This document shows, one piece after another, positions 2 through 9,236 of a DNA stretch of 64,000 nucleotides. Under the pieces are notes generated by a model that was not told where the DNA came from, did no database searches, and saw nothing but the letters and a program-made list of their open reading frames with translations. How positions within the stretch are numbered: position 1 is the stretch's first letter; every line of letters begins with the position of its first letter. The DNA lies in the NCBI GenBank assembly GCA_903932685.1, contig CAIZGX010000046.1, positions 1 to 64,000 on the forward strand, read 5' to 3'. The position numbers were made by a program, and so were the translations under genes. This DNA comes from an uncultured Bacteroidota bacterium. Lineage in GTDB: Bacteria > Bacteroidota > Bacteroidia > Flavobacteriales_D > Sanyastnellaceae.

Positions 2-682
2 ATAAAGACAGCTGCTCCTGCGAAAAAAGTAGTTGCGTCAGTAAAGAAAGCTGCTCCTGCGAAAAAACTAGTTGCGCCAGTAAAGAAAGCTGCTCCTGCG
101 AAAAAAGTAATTGCGCCAGTGAAGAAGTCCGCTCCTGCGAAAAAAGTAGTTGCGCCAGTAAAGAAAGTAGAAGTAAAGAAAGTTAAACCAGCTCCAGCAG
201 TTATCGCTAAACCAGCGACCGTGAAGAAACCCGAGGCAAAGTTTACTGCTCCCGTTTATAAACCTGCTCCAGAGATTAAAAAAGAACCCGTGAAGATGCC
301 AGCAGAACCAGTTAGAGGATTACGTTATTCAGATAAGGATTTGAAAGAATTCGAAGTCTTAATCAAAGAAAAATTAGAACAGTCTCGTTCCGATTTTGAA
401 GAGTTGAAAGAGTCTCTCTCAAGAGAAGGTGACAACAGCACCGACGATACTTCGCCTACATTCAAAATGATGGAAGACGGAAGCGATACGAACAGCCGCG
501 AAGAAGTGGCTCAACTGGCTTCACGTCAAGAAAAATTCATTAAGAACCTAGAAAACGCTCTTCTCCGTATCATGAACAAAACATACGGTGTATGTCGTGT
601 TACAGGGCAGCTTATTCCTAAAGAACGCTTGCGTTTGGTGCCTCATGCTACCCTTAGCATTGAAGCTAAAAACATGCAGTAA
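2..682 (+). CDS. TraR/DksA-family regulator with Lys/Ala/Pro-rich repeat tail (5' end outside window)
   Basis: The reading frame is open from base 2, so the start lies left of the window; 226 residues are visible. The first 95 or so residues are low-complexity Lys/Ala/Pro/Val, with a 13-residue unit (AAPAKKVVAPVKK type) in four near-identical copies, followed by a degenerate KPAPxxKK region. This resembles histone-H1-like or DNA-binding tails. The C-terminal 125 residues form a DksA/TraR-like coiled coil plus an end domain (YGVCRVTGQLIPKERL, then SIEAKNMQ). In classical DksA this region carries a four-cysteine zinc finger; only one Cys remains here, as I recall for Bacteroidota members. DksA proteins bind the RNA polymerase secondary channel, but that role for this paralogue is inference. 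The next gene, lspA, starts 11 bases after the stop, suggesting co-transcription. Confidence 0.85.
   Translation: MKTAAPAKKVVASVKKAAPAKKLVAPVKKAAPAKKVIAPVKKSAPAKKVVAPVKKVEVKKVKPAPAVIAKPATVKKPEAKFTAPVYKPAPEIKKEPVKMPAEPVRGLRYSDKDLKEFEVLIKEKLEQSRSDFEELKESLSREGDNSTDDTSPTFKMMEDGSDTNSREEVAQLASRQEKFIKNLENALLRIMNKTYGVCRVTGQLIPKERLRLVPHATLSIEAKNMQ
11..166 (+). repeat. Four tandem 39-bp coding repeats
   Basis: Units begin at 11, 50, 89 and 128, each 13 codons, differing by only a few substitutions. They encode the basic AAPAKKVVAPVKK-type repeat of the DksA-like protein. The array may continue left of the window. The high nucleotide identity suggests recent copy-number change. Confidence 0.9.
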
Positions 683-693
683 GATCGCGTATA

Positions 694-1368
694 GTGAGAA
701 AAGTACTCTTAACTATTTTAAGCGTTGTTGCGCTTGATCAACTATTAAAAATATGGATAAAGCTCAATTTTCTCTACGGAGAAAATTTCGAGCTTATTTC
801 CGGTTGGCTCGATTTACAATTCGTTGAAAATCCGGGTATGGCATTCGGTTGGATGTTCCCCGGAACAAGCGGGAAATTAGCTCTGAGCATTTTCCGAATC
901 ATTGTTGTTACGGCCATAATTATTTACATCTTCAGGCTTACAAAAAAGAAAACCCACCAAGGATACCTTTTCTGCTTAGCACTTATTGTAGCTGGTGCCT
1001 TGGGGAACATCATTGACAGCGCTGTTTACGGCATGTGCTTCGACAAAGGGTCAACCTTTGATCCTCACTATCAAGATTACTCGGCCTATTCAGATACTGC
1101 AGCATTTTCTGCAGAAGGTTATGCTCCTTTTCTCATGGGAAATGTAGTTGACATGATACACCTTACCAAGGAATTCGACTTCCCTTTGTGGTCGCCAATT
1201 CATGCAGGAGAAAGAGCTGAAATCTTCCCTCCTATTTTCAACATTGCCGATGCTTCTATTTCAATTGGAATCATTCTCATATTACTCTTTCAAAGACGTT
1301 TCTTCAAGGAAGAAGAAGAAGAGGTTTTAATTGAAGAAGCAGTCACGGAAGTCAACACTCCGAAATGA
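694..1368 (+). CDS. lspA: Lipoprotein signal peptidase (signal peptidase II)
   Basis: An inner-membrane aspartic protease that removes the signal peptide from prolipoproteins after the lipobox Cys is diacylated. It has 224 residues and starts with GTG. There are four hydrophobic segments, the conserved FVENPGMAFG region near residue 50, and the two catalytic Asp motifs NVVDMI (Asp153) and FNIADAS (Asp186). A roughly 40-residue hydrophilic insert after the third membrane segment is common in Bacteroidota LspA. The acidic C-terminus is longer than in E. coli LspA. Its stop overlaps the murF-alr start (ATGA), so the two are translationally coupled. Many lipoproteins in this window would be its substrates. 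Confidence 0.96.
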   Translation: MRKVLLTILSVVALDQLLKIWIKLNFLYGENFELISGWLDLQFVENPGMAFGWMFPGTSGKLALSIFRIIVVTAIIIYIFRLTKKKTHQGYLFCLALIVAGALGNIIDSAVYGMCFDKGSTFDPHYQDYSAYSDTAAFSAEGYAPFLMGNVVDMIHLTKEFDFPLWSPIHAGERAEIFPPIFNIADASISIGIILILLFQRRFFKEEEEEVLIEEAVTEVNTPK

Positions 1369-3809
1369 AATTAAATCTTACTCTTTCAGATCTTTCTCTG
1401 CTACTTGAGAGTAATATCTCTGACGGAGATGGCACGAAATACATACATGCGATATGTACAGACACTCGCCACACTGTTGACGCGGAAAACACTTTATTCA
1501 TTCCACTTATAGGCGAACATTTCAACGGGCATCTGTTTGTTGCAAGCGCCTATAAAAAGGGAATTCGAACTTTTATTGTCTCGGAACATGTGCATCTATC
1601 CGATGATTGCATCGTGATTCATGTTGAAAACACAACCGATGCTTTTCAAAAAATTGCTGCACATCACCGCGCACAATTCAACATTCCGGTAATCGGAATT
1701 ACAGGTAGCAATGGAAAAACCATTGTGAAGGAATGGATCAATCAATTGCTTGCCGACGATTACTGCATTGTAAGAAGTCCAAAAAGTTTCAATTCACAAA
1801 TTGGCGTTTCCCTAGCTGTACTGCAGATTGAATCCATGCACAATCTCGGGTTATTCGAAGCTGGGATTTCTCTTCCAGGAGAAATGAACGCGCTTCAACG
1901 TATCATTCAACCCACAACAGGTGTGTTCACCTTTTTAGGAAGCGCCCATGCTGAAAACTTTGCTTCACAAAGCGAATTGCTTCATGAAAAAATGAAGCTA
2001 TTCGGTTCCTGCGATACGCTCATCATTCCTTCAACCCTTGACTTAAATTTTAGTGGGAATATCATTCGAGTTGGAAATCAAACACAAGACGATTTTTCCA
2101 TTCGAGAAATAAAATCCTCTTCAACACATTCAATTATTTCTTTCAGTTGGAAAGGAAAAACCTCTTCAGCAGAGATTCCGTTTATTGACACTATATCCAT
2201 CGATAATTTCGCGCTTGCCGCTGCAACAGCCCTCCAACATGGACTTTCAATGACTCAATTGTCAGAAAAAGCGCCGCAGCTAATGGCCGTTGAAATGCGC
2301 ATGCAACAATTGAAAGGAATTGGCGGAATGCAATTGTTGAACGACAGTTACAGCAACGATTTAACCTCATTGAAACTTGCGCTTCAGCATTTCAACTTGA
2401 ACATTCAAGCAAAAAAACGAAGCGTTATCATTTCCGATATTTTACAAAGCGGAATGAACGATGAGATTTGGATCTCACGTGTTGTAGAACTCATGAATGA
2501 ATTTCAAATCGACAACATTTATGCTGTTGGTGAAGTTTTCCTTCAACATAAAAATAAATTACCAAGAAATTTCTCGTGCTTTCAAGGCACCGCAGAACTT
2601 GTCGAATTTCTGCTTTCAAATAAAATCGATTCGAATGCCCTGCTCATCAAAGGCGCTCGGAAATTTCATTTCGAAAAAATAGTGAGCGCACTGCAAGAGC
2701 AGCACCAAGAAACCATTTTCGAGGTCAACATGAACGCCCTTGCCAACAACTACTATTATTTCCGTTCGTTACTGAACCCCAATGTAAAACTCATGGGAAT
2801 GGTGAAAGCTAATGGATACGGCATTGGCGCGGTTGAAGTGGCTGTCTGCCTTGCCAATTGTGGAATTGACGCGTTGGCCGTAGCGTATGCAGACGAAGGA
2901 GTTCAACTTCGCGAAGCAGGAATTTCACTTCCCATTTTAGTTCTTGAACCGAATGTTACCGACTTCGCTCCGCTTTTCAAACATCGTTTAGAACCTGAAT
3001 TGTTTTCCATTCGATCATTCAACGCGTTCGCGAAAGCTGCTAAAGAATTCAATGCAGAAAAAACTTTCAAAGCGCATTTGAAACTCGACACCGGCATGAA
3101 CCGTCTTGGATTCAAAAGCAATGAAACCATTGAATTGCTTGAATTACTTCGAGAAAATTCAAACATTGAAATAACTAGCATCTTCACCCACTTTGCCGCA
3201 TCGGAAGATGAAAGTCATGATACCTTCACCCAAGTTCAAATCAACGATTTTGAAAATCGTTGTGCTCAAATATCAGCAGTTCTAGGTTATTCTCCCACTC
3301 TTCACGCCGCAAATACCGGCGGAATACAGCGTTGGAAAAACGCTCAGTTCAACATGGTTCGCTTGGGTATTGGTCTTTACGGAGTTTCAGCGTTCGAAGA
3401 GGAGCAAAAAATGTTGCGCACCGTCGGAAGCCTAAAGACCAGCATTGTTCAAATAAAAACAGTTCTTTCAAATGAAACGGTTGGTTACGGAAGAACATTC
3501 ACTTCCAACCAAGAAATGAAAATAGCCGTTCTTCCGATTGGCTACGCAGACGGCTTCCGCCGATCTCTTTCCAACGGAAAAGGAAAAGTGTTCGTCAACG
3601 GAAAAGCCTGTCCTGTCGTGGGGCGTGTGTGCATGGACATGACCATGGTAGACATTTCTAACCTTGAGGCAAAGGAGGGTGACGAGGCTATTATCTTCAA
3701 CGAAGAACACCCCATTACGGCTTTCGCGAACGACTGCGATACCATTGCCTATGAAGTGCTCACGAGTATTCCCCAACGCGTGAAGCGTATAATTGTAAAC
3801 GAGGCATAA
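1365..3809 (+). CDS. murF-alr: Bifunctional UDP-MurNAc-tripeptide:D-Ala-D-Ala ligase / alanine racemase
   Basis: A fusion of two cytoplasmic peptidoglycan-precursor enzymes, 814 residues. Residues 1-440 are MurF, which adds D-Ala-D-Ala to UDP-MurNAc-tripeptide; the ATP-binding loop GITGSNGKT is at 111-119. From about residue 445 it is a PLP-dependent alanine racemase with the PLP lysine in MVKANGYG (Lys481), the catalytic Tyr motif VGYGRTF, and the C-terminal RVCMDMTMVD. The fusion is well known in Bacteroidota; it joins the enzyme making D-Ala to the ligase using D-Ala-D-Ala. The MurF half is slightly divergent around the central domain but keeps the nucleotide loop. The start overlaps the lspA stop by four bases. 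Confidence 0.96.
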   Translation: MKLNLTLSDLSLLLESNISDGDGTKYIHAICTDTRHTVDAENTLFIPLIGEHFNGHLFVASAYKKGIRTFIVSEHVHLSDDCIVIHVENTTDAFQKIAAHHRAQFNIPVIGITGSNGKTIVKEWINQLLADDYCIVRSPKSFNSQIGVSLAVLQIESMHNLGLFEAGISLPGEMNALQRIIQPTTGVFTFLGSAHAENFASQSELLHEKMKLFGSCDTLIIPSTLDLNFSGNIIRVGNQTQDDFSIREIKSSSTHSIISFSWKGKTSSAEIPFIDTISIDNFALAAATALQHGLSMTQLSEKAPQLMAVEMRMQQLKGIGGMQLLNDSYSNDLTSLKLALQHFNLNIQAKKRSVIISDILQSGMNDEIWISRVVELMNEFQIDNIYAVGEVFLQHKNKLPRNFSCFQGTAELVEFLLSNKIDSNALLIKGARKFHFEKIVSALQEQHQETIFEVNMNALANNYYYFRSLLNPNVKLMGMVKANGYGIGAVEVAVCLANCGIDALAVAYADEGVQLREAGISLPILVLEPNVTDFAPLFKHRLEPELFSIRSFNAFAKAAKEFNAEKTFKAHLKLDTGMNRLGFKSNETIELLELLRENSNIEITSIFTHFAASEDESHDTFTQVQINDFENRCAQISAVLGYSPTLHAANTGGIQRWKNAQFNMVRLGIGLYGVSAFEEEQKMLRTVGSLKTSIVQIKTVLSNETVGYGRTFTSNQEMKIAVLPIGYADGFRRSLSNGKGKVFVNGKACPVVGRVCMDMTMVDISNLEAKEGDEAIIFNEEHPITAFANDCDTIAYEVLTSIPQRVKRIIVNEA

Positions 3810-3860
3810 ACTTCGTGCGGAAAAATGTCATTTCTGTGAACATGTAAGGTGCATTCATTC

Positions 3861-3879
3861 CGATATTTACACAATATCG
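3861..3879. promoter_or_regulatory. Perfect 7-bp inverted repeat before the S8 protease gene
   Basis: CGATATT and AATATCG are separated by five bases and end nine bases before the ATG at 3888. The placement suggests an operator or a leader hairpin. No U-run follows, so it is not a terminator. The role is inference. Confidence 0.35.
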
Positions 3880-3887
3880 AAATTGTT

Positions 3888-6539
3888 ATGATGCACAAAA
3901 TCTACTTCCAAAAATCTATTCTAACCTTTTTAAGCGTAATCGCTTTTTCATTTCTTTCATTCGGACAAGCTGCCAGAATGAACAATGAGTTTATCCTTCA
4001 ACTTAAAAAAGGATTTTCTCCTGCCCAGGCAGAACAAGAATTAACTCAACATTTCGGAATACTTCCTGAAATTAAAGTGAGCTACGAGGTCAGCGACATC
4101 ATGCGCGCTTGGTTGTTTACCTTCAATGAAGAATTGGTTTCGTTGAATGAAATCATTCGCTACGCTCCAACTTGCTCAAGCATTCAACTGGCGCAAGCCA
4201 ATCACAAACTTGCTGAGCGCATTGTTCCCAATGACCCTTCATATGGCCAGCAATGGTTTCATGACGACGCATCAGACAACGATATTGACACACCTGAAGC
4301 TTGGGACATCACCACCGGCGGACTAACAGCATTTGGCGACGAAATTGTTGTTTGTGTTGTTGAAGGCGGCGGTGCAAAATGGGATCAGGCAGACATCATT
4401 GAAAACCACTGGACCAATACCAATGAGATAGATGGAAATGGTATTGACGACGACAACAACGGTTATATCGATGACATTGACGGTTGGAATATGACTGCCA
4501 ACAGCGACGCTATTGCAGCTGGAAATCACGGTACGCAAGTAAGCAGCATGATTGGTGCAAAAGGTGACAACGGAATTGGAATTACAGGAGTAAACTGGAA
4601 TGTAAAAATCATGCAAGTAGACATGGGTGGTATTTCAGAAGCCAATGTCATTGCAGCATACACCTATCCCTTGAAGATGCGTCGCATGTACAACTTGTCT
4701 GGCGGAACACAAGGCGCATACGTTGTTGCAACAAATAGCAGCTGGGGAACCGACAACGGACAACCTTCTCAAGCCCCACTTTGGTGCGCTATGTACGACA
4801 CACTTGGAGTAGCTGGAATTCTTTCTTGCGGTTCAACAGCGAATAACAATGTTAACGTTGATGTTGTTGGAGATCTTCCTACCGCTTGTCCCAGCGAGTA
4901 TATGGTTGCTGTAACTGCAACAAATAGCTCCGACGTGAGAACATTCAGCGGATACGGAATTACAACCATTGACATAGGTGCTCCTGGCGAGGCGGTTTAT
5001 CTTGCGGGCAATACCAATTACGGAAACACTTCGGGAACGTCCTTTGCGGGCCCATGCGTTGCCGGTGCAATAGCACTGTTGTATTCCGCGCCTTGTAACT
5101 CTTTCATGGCAATAGCAAACTCGAATCCTTCCACGGGAGCTCAACTTATTCGAGACTATATTTTCAATGGAGTAGATATCGTAGCTAACCTTCAACCCGA
5201 ATTGGTAACAGGCGGACGATTGAATGTTAAAAACAGTCTTGATTTACTGCTGAATGAATGTTCGGCTGGCGGATGCGTGGCACCTTTTGCAATTGCGGCT
5301 TTACAGACGCCGGGCACGCTCGAATACAATATCTACTGGAACAGCACTCCGGATGTTACAAATTTCGTTTGCCAATACCAAGTTCAAGGCAGCGGAACAT
5401 GGACTCTTGTTGAAGGCATTAACGCCAATAATCTTGTGTTGAGCGGTTTGAACGCATGTACTTCCTACGAAATTCAACTTGCTTCTGTCTGTGACACTGT
5501 TCAAGGCGAATGGACAAATTCATTCTTACTTACCACCGAAGGATGTTGCGTAAACCCGAACGAATATTCGGTTCCGAATGCACAAGGTGCAACAACAGCA
5601 ACAGTTGCATGGAATGACATCTTCGCTGCAGATGGATATACCATTCAGTTAACAGGACCAAACGGAACCGATATTATTCAATCGCTTCAGCCAAATATTA
5701 CATTCTTTAACTTAGATTCTTGCACCACCTACACCATTCAAGTAGGGTCAATCTGCGTCAATCCAGAAAATCCTTTCACTTCGTTTGAATTCTCTACAAC
5801 CGGTTGCGGTTCATGTACCGACGTTGTTTATTGTGATGCCAATGGTGGAAACGCGTCGGATGAATACATAGACGCGGTTACTGTGGGTTCATTCACGAAC
5901 ATTAGCACCGCAAATGCAAACTACACCGATTACACAGATCTTAGCACGTTGACACTGGTTGCAGGAAACTCTTATCCAGTCTCACTTACACCTGGTTTCC
6001 CAGGAGGATCATACAGTGAGTATTTCAAAGTATGGATCGACTACAATGCCAATGGAACTTTCGACGAACCTGCTGAATTAGCCTACGATGCAGGCAGCGG
6101 TTCTCAAAATACAGTTACCGGAACCATCACTGTTCCTGCAGCGGCAGCCCTTGCTCCAGGCAGCACACGCATGCGCGTTGGAATGGCTTACGTTGGAATA
6201 TTCGGTGCAGGAGCTCCTCCTAGCTCATGCGGAACCTACGGTTATGGCGAAGTGGAAGACTACTGCGTTAACTTGGAAATCGTGGATGGCGTTGAAATTT
6301 TAAATGGAAACTTCAACCTACAGGTTTATCCGAACCCAGCTGCAGAATCCATTCAGCTTAATCTTCCTTCAAACATTCAAATATTCCAATTAAGAATATT
6401 ATCCACAGACGGAAAATGTGTCAAACAAATGAACACCTATTCTCGTTTTCATTCAGTTAGTGATCTTGCTCCAGGATATTACATTGTTGAAGTCGTTTCA
6501 GAAAACGGAATCGCTAGAACAAAAATTTGTGTTGAGTAA
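3888..6539 (+). CDS. Secreted S8 (subtilisin-like) peptidase homologue with GEVED and T9SS type A sorting domains
   Basis: A surface or secreted protein of 883 residues. I chose ATG 3888 because it puts a signal peptide (MMHKIYFQ, then a hydrophobic core ending SFGQA) at the N-terminus; an upstream GTG at 3849 would add a poor leader. The S8 domain spans about residues 90-460: His motif NHGTQ (His214), oxyanion region NSSWG, and Ser motif GTSFAGP (Ser385). At the usual catalytic Asp position (normally DTG or DSG) the sequence reads VVEGGG, with Glu159. After it comes a GNGIDDDNNGYIDD calcium-loop-like segment typical of these subtilases. Two fibronectin-III-like domains follow, then a GEVED domain (YGEVEDY) and a C-terminal VYPNPA sorting motif recognised by T9SS. 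Activity is uncertain because of the Asp-to-Glu change. Confidence 0.9.
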   Translation: MMHKIYFQKSILTFLSVIAFSFLSFGQAARMNNEFILQLKKGFSPAQAEQELTQHFGILPEIKVSYEVSDIMRAWLFTFNEELVSLNEIIRYAPTCSSIQLAQANHKLAERIVPNDPSYGQQWFHDDASDNDIDTPEAWDITTGGLTAFGDEIVVCVVEGGGAKWDQADIIENHWTNTNEIDGNGIDDDNNGYIDDIDGWNMTANSDAIAAGNHGTQVSSMIGAKGDNGIGITGVNWNVKIMQVDMGGISEANVIAAYTYPLKMRRMYNLSGGTQGAYVVATNSSWGTDNGQPSQAPLWCAMYDTLGVAGILSCGSTANNNVNVDVVGDLPTACPSEYMVAVTATNSSDVRTFSGYGITTIDIGAPGEAVYLAGNTNYGNTSGTSFAGPCVAGAIALLYSAPCNSFMAIANSNPSTGAQLIRDYIFNGVDIVANLQPELVTGGRLNVKNSLDLLLNECSAGGCVAPFAIAALQTPGTLEYNIYWNSTPDVTNFVCQYQVQGSGTWTLVEGINANNLVLSGLNACTSYEIQLASVCDTVQGEWTNSFLLTTEGCCVNPNEYSVPNAQGATTATVAWNDIFAADGYTIQLTGPNGTDIIQSLQPNITFFNLDSCTTYTIQVGSICVNPENPFTSFEFSTTGCGSCTDVVYCDANGGNASDEYIDAVTVGSFTNISTANANYTDYTDLSTLTLVAGNSYPVSLTPGFPGGSYSEYFKVWIDYNANGTFDEPAELAYDAGSGSQNTVTGTITVPAAAALAPGSTRMRVGMAYVGIFGAGAPPSSCGTYGYGEVEDYCVNLEIVDGVEILNGNFNLQVYPNPAAESIQLNLPSNIQIFQLRILSTDGKCVKQMNTYSRFHSVSDLAPGYYIVEVVSENGIARTKICVE

Positions 6540-6575
6540 GTAAACTAAATGACAACATAGATTGTCTAAGATAAA

Positions 6576-9236
6576 ATGAATCGAAAACTACTCCTCACCT
6601 TTTGCGCTTGGATTATAGCCCTTGCGGCTTGGGCTACGCACAATCGTGCAGGAGAAATTGTTTACGAGCATATAAGTGGATACACCTACAAAGTAACCAT
6701 TAACACGATTACAAAGGCCAGCTCCTTCGCCGCTGACCGTCCGTTTTTAAAAATCAGATGGGGCGACGAACCTTCAGGTACCACAGAAAATCAGCTCGAC
6801 AGTTTAGAAAGAAGCTCTCAAACGATTTTAGCCTCTGGTGACGCAAAGCGAAATGAGTATGTCGGATATCACACCTACTTAGGACCTGGAGTCTACTATT
6901 TAATCATGGAAGATCCCAACAGAAACGAGGGTGTGATAAACATTTTGAATTCTGTGAATCAAGTCTTCACGATTCAGACCATGCTTGTTATTTCGCCAGC
7001 AACTGGACATAACAATTCCGTACAGCTTTTAAAAATGCCCATTGAAGACGCTTGTCTGAATCAACCGTGGATACACAATCCTGTTGCGTTCGATCCGGAT
7101 GGAGATTCTTTGGTCTACTCGCTCGTGCCATGCATGGGTGCTGATGCGTTAGCTCTGGCAGGTTGGTTACTGCCGGACGCAAGCACTGTTAACGGTTCCG
7201 ATGTCTTCAGTATTGACTCTCAAACAGGTGATGTTACTTGGGTCGTTCCGCCGTTGGCAGGCGAGTTCAATATTGCCATTAAAATTGAAGAATTTCGAGA
7301 TGGATTATTAGTGGGTTATGTCATTCGTGACATGCAGATTACTGTTATAACCTGTAACAATCAACCTCCTGTTATCGCTCCGCTTCCAGACTATTGTGTG
7401 GAAGCAGGAAGCACCCTTCAGTTCGATGTCAATGCAAGTGATCCCAATGGGAACGCTGTCTTCATCAGTGCATTTGGCGGCCCATTGACCAACGTTGTTC
7501 ACGAAGCCGAATTCAATACGTTCACTGATACGTTCTATTGGAATCCGGAATGCGATGAGGTGCGCGCGACGCCATATACCGTGAGCTTTGAAGCGCTCGA
7601 CAACGGTTTCGTTCCTTTGGCTGATATAGAAACAGTAAACATTACCGTAGTAGCCCCTAAAGTGCAAAACGTTCAAGCAAATGCTGTGGGAGCAACGGTT
7701 GGAATATCTTGGAATCCTTCGCCATGTCTAAGCTCATTTTCCAACTACGAATTGGCAAATGTTCGCTATTTCATTTACAGAAAACAAAACGGATACAACT
7801 TCAATCCTTCAGATTGCGAAGTGGGGATGCCTGCCTATACAGGATTCGTTTACATTGGACAAACACTTGGCGCGAACAGTAATTTTTACCAAGATAACGC
7901 TCCTGGATTCGGTGTTCCATTTTGCTACCGCATTGTCACAGTATGGCCAGACGGCGCTTTGAGTTACGCCAGCGAAGAGGCGTGCGTTCAAATAAAAAAG
8001 GACATTCCTGTCATTACAAAAGTGAGTATTGAAACAACAGATATTTCGGTTGGAAGTGATACCGTTTGGTGGTCGCCTCCTACCCAGCTAGACACCCTCG
8101 CTTTCCTTCCTCCCTACCACTACGAACTAGAATTCGACAACAACGGGACATGGCAAACTATTTTCGCTTCCAATCCATTTACCATTCTAAATACAGGCGA
8201 TACCATTTATTATCATTCAAACATCGACACCTTCACTTCACTTAAAAAATACCGTATTAAATTTTATTCGAATGAAGACGTCGTTGGATATTCCTCCAGC
8301 GCAACTTCCCCTTGGCTTGTTGCAACGCCTCAAGACAATGCCATTCAGTTAAATTTACAAGGACAATTTCCTTGGATAAATTCTCGGTATTTCATTTATC
8401 GAAAGGCACCCGGAGAATTAATTTATTCTTTATTGAATGAAACAACTGCACCACAATACCTCGATACCGGCTTGGTAAACAATGCAAATTATTGCTACAA
8501 AATTCTTACGCTGGGATCATACGGTGCACCTAATGTTCCAGACTCCTTGTACAATTTCAGTCAGGAAGTATGCGGAAGTCCATTCGACGCAACACCACCA
8601 TGCCCACCTCTAATTTCTCAAATTAACAATTGTGAAATTCCTTCACTTCAAATTTCCTGGTACAACATTGACCCGTCATGTTCACAAGACATTACGGCTT
8701 ATAACATCTACTACGCCCAAACAGACACTAGTCAATACACATTGCTAGGAACCTTGAACGGTGCCAATAGTACCGAATTTGAATTCCTGCATCCAAATGG
8801 ATTACAGAGTATTGCCGGCTGTTTCTACATTACTGCGCTAGACTCACTGAACCTTTGGCCCGACGGAGAGCTTTATCAGAATGAAAGCTTGCCTTCGAAT
8901 GTTGTTTGCATAGACAACTGCCCAACGTATGAGCTTCCAAATATTATCACCCCAGACTTAGACGGATTGAATGATATTCTGAAGCCCTTCCCATATCGTT
9001 CAATTGAGAGCATCGACTTGAAAATTTTCAATAGATACGGAACACTTCTTTTTGAAACAACCGATCCAGATATCTTTTGGAATGCAACCGACCAAAAGAC
9101 TCAAAACCTTGTAAGCGCCGGAACCTACTATTACACTCTAATGGTCAACACCATTCGTCTTCAAGGAATTGTGCCTGTATTCAAAGAAGGGTATATTCAA
9201 ATCTTGAACGCTACACAGGCTTCACCTCAACAATAA
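6576..9236 (+). CDS. Large secreted protein with gliding-motility-associated C-terminal domain (T9SS type B)
   Basis: It has 886 residues. The N-terminal signal peptide (MNRKLLLTFCAWIIALAAWA) is followed by a THNRAGEI segment seen at the mature start of many Bacteroidota surface proteins. The middle holds Ig-like/cadherin-like and fibronectin-III-like domains. The last 90 residues are a CHU_C-type domain (NIITPDLDGLNDILKPF, then IFNRYGTLLFET), which directs export and anchoring by T9SS. There are no catalytic motifs, so it is probably an adhesin or structural surface protein. It begins 36 bases after the S8 protease and ends three bases before ribE. The protease pair may be co-transcribed; the ribE link is probably just compact packing. 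Confidence 0.88.
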   Translation: MNRKLLLTFCAWIIALAAWATHNRAGEIVYEHISGYTYKVTINTITKASSFAADRPFLKIRWGDEPSGTTENQLDSLERSSQTILASGDAKRNEYVGYHTYLGPGVYYLIMEDPNRNEGVINILNSVNQVFTIQTMLVISPATGHNNSVQLLKMPIEDACLNQPWIHNPVAFDPDGDSLVYSLVPCMGADALALAGWLLPDASTVNGSDVFSIDSQTGDVTWVVPPLAGEFNIAIKIEEFRDGLLVGYVIRDMQITVITCNNQPPVIAPLPDYCVEAGSTLQFDVNASDPNGNAVFISAFGGPLTNVVHEAEFNTFTDTFYWNPECDEVRATPYTVSFEALDNGFVPLADIETVNITVVAPKVQNVQANAVGATVGISWNPSPCLSSFSNYELANVRYFIYRKQNGYNFNPSDCEVGMPAYTGFVYIGQTLGANSNFYQDNAPGFGVPFCYRIVTVWPDGALSYASEEACVQIKKDIPVITKVSIETTDISVGSDTVWWSPPTQLDTLAFLPPYHYELEFDNNGTWQTIFASNPFTILNTGDTIYYHSNIDTFTSLKKYRIKFYSNEDVVGYSSSATSPWLVATPQDNAIQLNLQGQFPWINSRYFIYRKAPGELIYSLLNETTAPQYLDTGLVNNANYCYKILTLGSYGAPNVPDSLYNFSQEVCGSPFDATPPCPPLISQINNCEIPSLQISWYNIDPSCSQDITAYNIYYAQTDTSQYTLLGTLNGANSTEFEFLHPNGLQSIAGCFYITALDSLNLWPDGELYQNESLPSNVVCIDNCPTYELPNIITPDLDGLNDILKPFPYRSIESIDLKIFNRYGTLLFETTDPDIFWNATDQKTQNLVSAGTYYYTLMVNTIRLQGIVPVFKEGYIQILNATQASPQQ

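Follow-up and report, generated by a model that had tools for sequence, protein, structure and literature searches.

The gene P0001, on the forward strand at 3888-6539 of the window (the whole 64,000-nucleotide stretch of DNA analysed here), encodes an 883-residue protein that is probably an active, T9SS-exported subtilase using a Ser385-His214-Glu159 triad; we infer catalysis from sequence comparison and structure models. The protein belongs to S8 by descent and fold, but it falls outside the Asp-His-Ser catalytic type, having no Asp in a DxG motif as the triad acid, and it is best read as a lineage-specific S8 variant. Textbooks treat the catalytic Asp of subtilases as invariant. No S8 enzyme with Glu as the acid appeared in the open-access titles and abstract openings listed. 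A natural Asp-to-Glu lineage with an adjusted backbone amounts to a ready experiment on the tolerance of the triad and on the compensating change that is needed, and the case warns against labelling every non-Asp S8 protein a pseudoenzyme.

Domain layout and export of P0001

The open reading frame was assigned from 3888, and a GTG start at 3849 is also possible in the same frame. The parts of the gene are:

3888..3965, forward strand: probable signal peptide, residues 1-26 (judged from the sequence)
3966..4220, forward strand: propeptide, residues ~27-111, with R111 at the junction (inferred boundaries)
4221..5273, forward strand: S8 catalytic domain, residues ~112-462 (Pfam PF00082, E 4.4e-24; AF2 model)
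5340..5762, forward strand: two fibronectin type III-like stretches (Pfam fn3 over the cut-off, two stretches)
6021..6272, forward strand: GEVED domain, residues 712-795 (Pfam)
6324..6530, forward strand: T9SS C-terminal sorting domain, residues 813-881 (PF18962 and TIGR04183 over the cut-off)

Pfam profiles matched Peptidase_S8 at 150-401 (85.7 bits against a cut-off of 21.8), GEVED at 712-795, Por_Secre_tail at 813-881, and fn3, of which the best stretch is 559-625; the second lies near 485-539, where it was placed by a sub-threshold PF25059 match. The GEVED and T9SS domains, described as intact in the original prediction, were both recovered by profiles. SprA, the T9SS translocon and the sole part of the system looked for, is encoded in the same genome, and with this and its C-terminal sorting domain P0001 qualifies as a predicted T9SS cargo.

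The upstream neighbour of P0001 is an alr/Mur-ligase fusion gene at 1365-3809, whose single protein combines Mur ligase and alanine racemase domains. Directly after the protease gene and on the same strand, 6576-9236 encodes a sizeable protein that bears a CHU_C signal (T9SS type B). A PF00082 search identified four further S8 genes in the genome, all of which, by eye, read Asp at the matching motif (IIDSG, LFDAG, VFDGG and VIDAG).

Glutamate at the position of the catalytic acid

The residues of the active site and its surroundings are:

4362..4364, forward strand: Glu159 (GAA), which replaces the catalytic Asp (alignments; last residue of the strand at model residues 126-133)
4365..4391, forward strand: loop behind the acid, residues 160-168 (GGGAKWDQA), remodelled and extended by one residue relative to Asp enzymes
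4392..4394, forward strand: Asp169, which aligns to the HPDL Asp of Asp-type subtilases and is not the triad acid
4527..4529, forward strand: His214, catalytic base (229/229 rows covering the position)
4734..4742, forward strand: Asn283-Ser284-Ser285, counterpart of the subtilisin CHO tripeptide Asn123-Ser125 (alignment)
4842..4844, forward strand: Asn319, oxyanion Asn, in TANNN (229/229 covering rows; profile alignment to deseasin)
5040..5042, forward strand: Ser385, nucleophile in GTSFAGP (230/230 rows)
5043..5045, forward strand: Phe386, directly after the nucleophile (row counts in Glu and Asp rows)

Single-sequence and profile alignments agreed in aligning Glu159 to the catalytic Asp of deseasin MCP-01 (3vv3), and the family alignment likewise confirmed the original prediction that Glu occupies the position of the catalytic Asp. 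That Ser385 and His214 are kept, as had also been claimed, was seen throughout the alignment: His was present in 229/229 covering rows, the oxyanion Asn in 229/229 and Ser in 230/230, whereas positions 160-168 vary. The assignment of the oxyanion to NSSWG (283-287) did not hold, as this motif aligns with the "CHO" peptide of subtilisin (Asn123-Ser125, so named in PMC11593635) and the real oxyanion Asn is N319.

AlphaFold models were obtained for window residues 27-470 (mean pLDDT 91.9) and for a relative with a shorter loop, L051 (92.3). The best PDB match of the window model was 3vv3, with a Z of 47.9 and an rmsd of 1.5 A over 316 residues, and the 50 PDB entries among the VIA-align matches listed all had a Z of at least 35 to this model. 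The first core strand of the window model (model residues 126-133) terminates exactly at Glu159, and in the L051 model the strand terminates one residue ahead of the Glu; both models put the Glu at the tip of this strand, the usual place of Asp. The catalytic His and Ser of subtilisin are each the second residue of a helix, and the same is true of His214 and Ser385 in the window model. A PDB profile comparison showed Asp at the acid position in the best 5 of 146 matched chains.

Relatives were collected by catalytic-region searches of 114 family genomes (94 matching at 1e-10), 249 order genomes (154 at 1e-20) and 395 phylum genomes (109 at 1e-20), tallies that pool the Glu and Asp forms; by a whole-protein search of genome_contigs, from which 80 of 167 loci were kept; and by 100 further regions picked by choice from the match listings. 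The resulting 248 loci gave 252 profile-matching open frames, which after removal of 22 duplicates and 1 short fragment left 229 sequences plus the window. Among the 230 aligned rows, the acid column held Glu in 124 and Asp in 105 and was uncovered in 1 partial row, so that column 159 is acidic in 229/229 covering rows; the gene of the window is counted twice among the 124 Glu rows, which leaves 123 distinct sequences. A set of 121/121 Glu rows had been selected by Glu and is uninformative on fixation, for which rows chosen by identity and the clade of the tree were used instead. When rows were grouped by how identical they are to the window, with the acid region excluded, Glu was found in 60/60 relatives at 60% or above, 32/45 at 55-60%, 27/50 at 50-55% and 3/72 below 50%. 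Glu is thus nearly fixed in a large clade centred on Flavobacteriales, which answers a question raised in the original prediction, while the residues right behind it vary.

The Glu form was found in Flavobacteriales (the window family f1, together with f2, f3, f4, f9, f11, Crocinitomicaceae and further records from that order). It also occurred in six records assigned to Bacteroidota only, in a single record from Saprospiraceae (L084) and in a genome that belongs to a different order of the same class (L191). The remaining rows from outside the order have Asp, and Asp rows are present inside the order too. That the Glu is a sequencing error or the decay of a single strain is hardly credible: the genome assembly is fragmented (84 contigs), but 122 further distinct sequences carry the same Glu, among them the Crocinitomix algicola strain 0182 record (L075), and this explanation is refuted by the Glu-bearing relatives. 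Because the change is common to a whole group of related bacteria, the gene appears to encode a functional alternative active site and not to be broken. Two metagenome-derived records titled Chryseobacterium gleum (L037 and L040) carry a gene 87-89% identical to that of the window; they score like genomes of the window genus (L009 and L007), so this label looks doubtful. In L151, three S8 homologues lie in tandem (stop-to-stop frames 593-3376, 3366-6080 and 6084-8801), two of Asp type and one of Glu type, and this genome offers a natural side-by-side comparison of the two forms.

An Asp of the nearby WDQAD (W165-D166-Q167-A168-D169) had been named as the residue that might occupy the catalytic position in place of Glu159. 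Neither candidate was retained as the triad acid: Asp166 is variable, with Asp in just 27/121 Glu rows, and Asp169 is common to the Asp enzymes, being present in 121/121 Glu rows and 103/105 Asp rows, the other two of which have Glu. It is also conceivable, at a very low probability, that some other carboxylate took over as the acid, for example Asp207 (4506-4508), seven residues before His214. This position is the most enriched conserved acid near the active site in the Glu rows, being acidic in 0.98 of them against 0.61 of the 56 nearest Asp rows and 0.34 of all 105, and an acid "walk" to the base peptide has been described for serine-carboxyl proteinases (PMC11593635). However, Asp207 is common in the Asp relatives and by eye corresponds to the first Asp of deseasin GDPMDDEGH, and is therefore not new; moreover, a takeover would leave the acidic column 159 in 229/229 rows unexplained. 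No new acid was found, in that each acid conserved in 80% or more of the Glu rows also occurred in no fewer than 61% of the Asp rows nearest to them.

Loop remodelling, history and selection

The spacing from the acid to Asp169 was 9 in 105/105 Asp rows; in 123 Glu rows it was 10 in 80, 8 in 37 and 9 in 6. An alternative count of the loop, which includes the acid and stops before column 168, gives 8 for Asp rows and 9, 7 and 8 for Glu rows, and lengths 7 and 9 on this count interchange inside the Glu clade. The Gly of DxG was present in 103/105 Asp rows; the Glu rows, from the acid onwards, read EGGG, ETQG, ELGG, ENAD, EGGN, ESAD and others. Canonical spacing in 6/123 Glu rows indicates that a change of length is not strictly required, and the independent pairs for a coupling of acid and loop (2 on supported branches, 4 on all) are too few for significance. 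Besides 159, the positions that distinguish the Glu rows from their 56 nearest Asp rows are 125, 221, 222, 351, 370 and 386. Residue 386 follows the nucleophile and 221-222 belong to the helix behind His214, so these residues may assist in accommodating the altered acid. Residue 386 is Phe in 118 and Tyr in 3 of 121 main Glu rows; most of the 56 nearest Asp rows have Gly, Met or Ala there. Phe386 was nonetheless rejected as a part of the switch, since Phe is also found in 15/105 Asp rows and is not diagnostic.

A mechanism can be proposed on this basis. The D-to-E exchange would have added one methylene to the side chain of the acid, and the loop that follows (the DxG turn) would have been rebuilt, in most cases by the gain or loss of a single residue, in a way that could let the Glu159 carboxylate still hydrogen-bond His214. 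After removal of the propeptide at a conserved junction around R111-P114, the secreted enzyme would cleave peptides through the usual acyl-enzyme intermediate, either at the cell surface or away from it.

A 124-row tree, built without the trait's own columns, contained a main clade of 51 Glu and 2 Asp rows (support 80) and needed 4 Asp/Glu changes. A 48-row tree also needed 4 changes; in it, the split between a Glu clade (26 rows with Glu and two with Asp) and the Asp side stood at 100/97, although the bootstrap was not fully settled. The two Asp rows inside the Glu clade, L066 (4097-5410) and L093 (550-1839), both have canonical spacing; they may be reversions or early branches, and possibly they represent two reversions in which the loop reverted as well. 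On the Asp side, the Saprospiraceae sequence L084 (4022-5380) has Glu and the same +1 loop as the window, which suggests a parallel gain of Glu outside the main clade; since Asp is the norm elsewhere in the family, Glu was probably gained at least twice, the second time with the loop insertion seen in the window. L084 has GTSG, as in the Asp sister of the Glu clade. The distant S8 protein L191, with Glu and canonical spacing, lies on a long branch among Asp rows, and its placement is unsure.

In comparisons with five close relatives, dN/dS was 0.013-0.043 for the catalytic domain, 0.037-0.122 for the signal peptide and propeptide, and 0.082-0.154 for the C-terminal part; the ratio for L039 is rough, as dS was above 2 in all three gene parts. 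In each of the five comparisons the catalytic domain gave the lowest value of the three gene parts, and these values and the clade-wide conservation uphold the earlier view that the gene is not decaying. At the propeptide junction, R111, D116, Q122 and W123 were present in 82/82 aligned rows, of Glu and Asp types alike, so that in the aligned sequences the junction is common to the Glu form and its Asp-type relatives. In the window model, the propeptide has its own strands and helices at model residues 4-80, and the deseasin chain aligns with the model from model residue 86, which is window residue 112.

These data also bear on the second option of the original prediction, a pseudoenzyme that retains the fold and the triad-like residues for binding at the cell surface, with the Glu form lacking turnover. 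The acid has indeed changed, and pseudoproteases reportedly exist among the subtilases, for instance CspC. Many pseudoproteases have lost the nucleophile or the base; P0001 has kept both His214 and Ser385. Beyond this, His, Ser and the oxyanion Asn are fixed in every covering row, the Asp relatives have the same propeptide junction and the catalytic domain is the most constrained part of the gene, although strong conservation would also be expected of a binding protein under constraint. Nothing was found in favour of the binding pseudoenzyme, and it is considered unlikely. Altogether, Glu159 as a working acid, the other option of the prediction, is well supported by its near-fixation in a clade, the loop change, the parallel case, very strong purifying selection and the intact rest of the active site.

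Comparison with known systems

P0001 resembles deseasin MCP-01 (3vv3) in its fold, the GIDxDxNGYIDD stretch, His, Ser, the oxyanion Asn and the start of the mature chain; however, deseasin has Asp in IDTG with a canonical loop. The Asp-type Bacteroidota sisters L061 and L076 are 58% and 54% identical to the window in the catalytic domain and share the R111 junction, but have Asp, canonical spacing and mostly GTSG, GTSM or GTSA in place of GTSF. Acetylcholinesterase-type alpha/beta-hydrolases are unrelated to subtilases in fold and reaction. Their Ser-His-Glu arrangement, in which Glu completes the triad alongside Ser and His (PMC9853848), is like that proposed here by analogy only. Sedolisins (S53) and other serine-carboxyl proteinases share with P0001 a subtilisin-like fold and a Glu in the triad (Ser-Glu-Asp); in these enzymes, the base is Glu instead of His and the acid has shifted to the base peptide (PMC11593635), whereas in P0001 Glu replaces Asp and His214 is kept, and because of this His P0001 is not a sedolisin. 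The putative T9SS-cargo KP-43 subtilases SpBcA and SpBcB of Bergeyella cardium likewise combine an S8 domain with a T9SS tail, and SpBcA cleaves off its own propeptide (PMC11982257); their triad, however, is Asp133-His160-Ser388.
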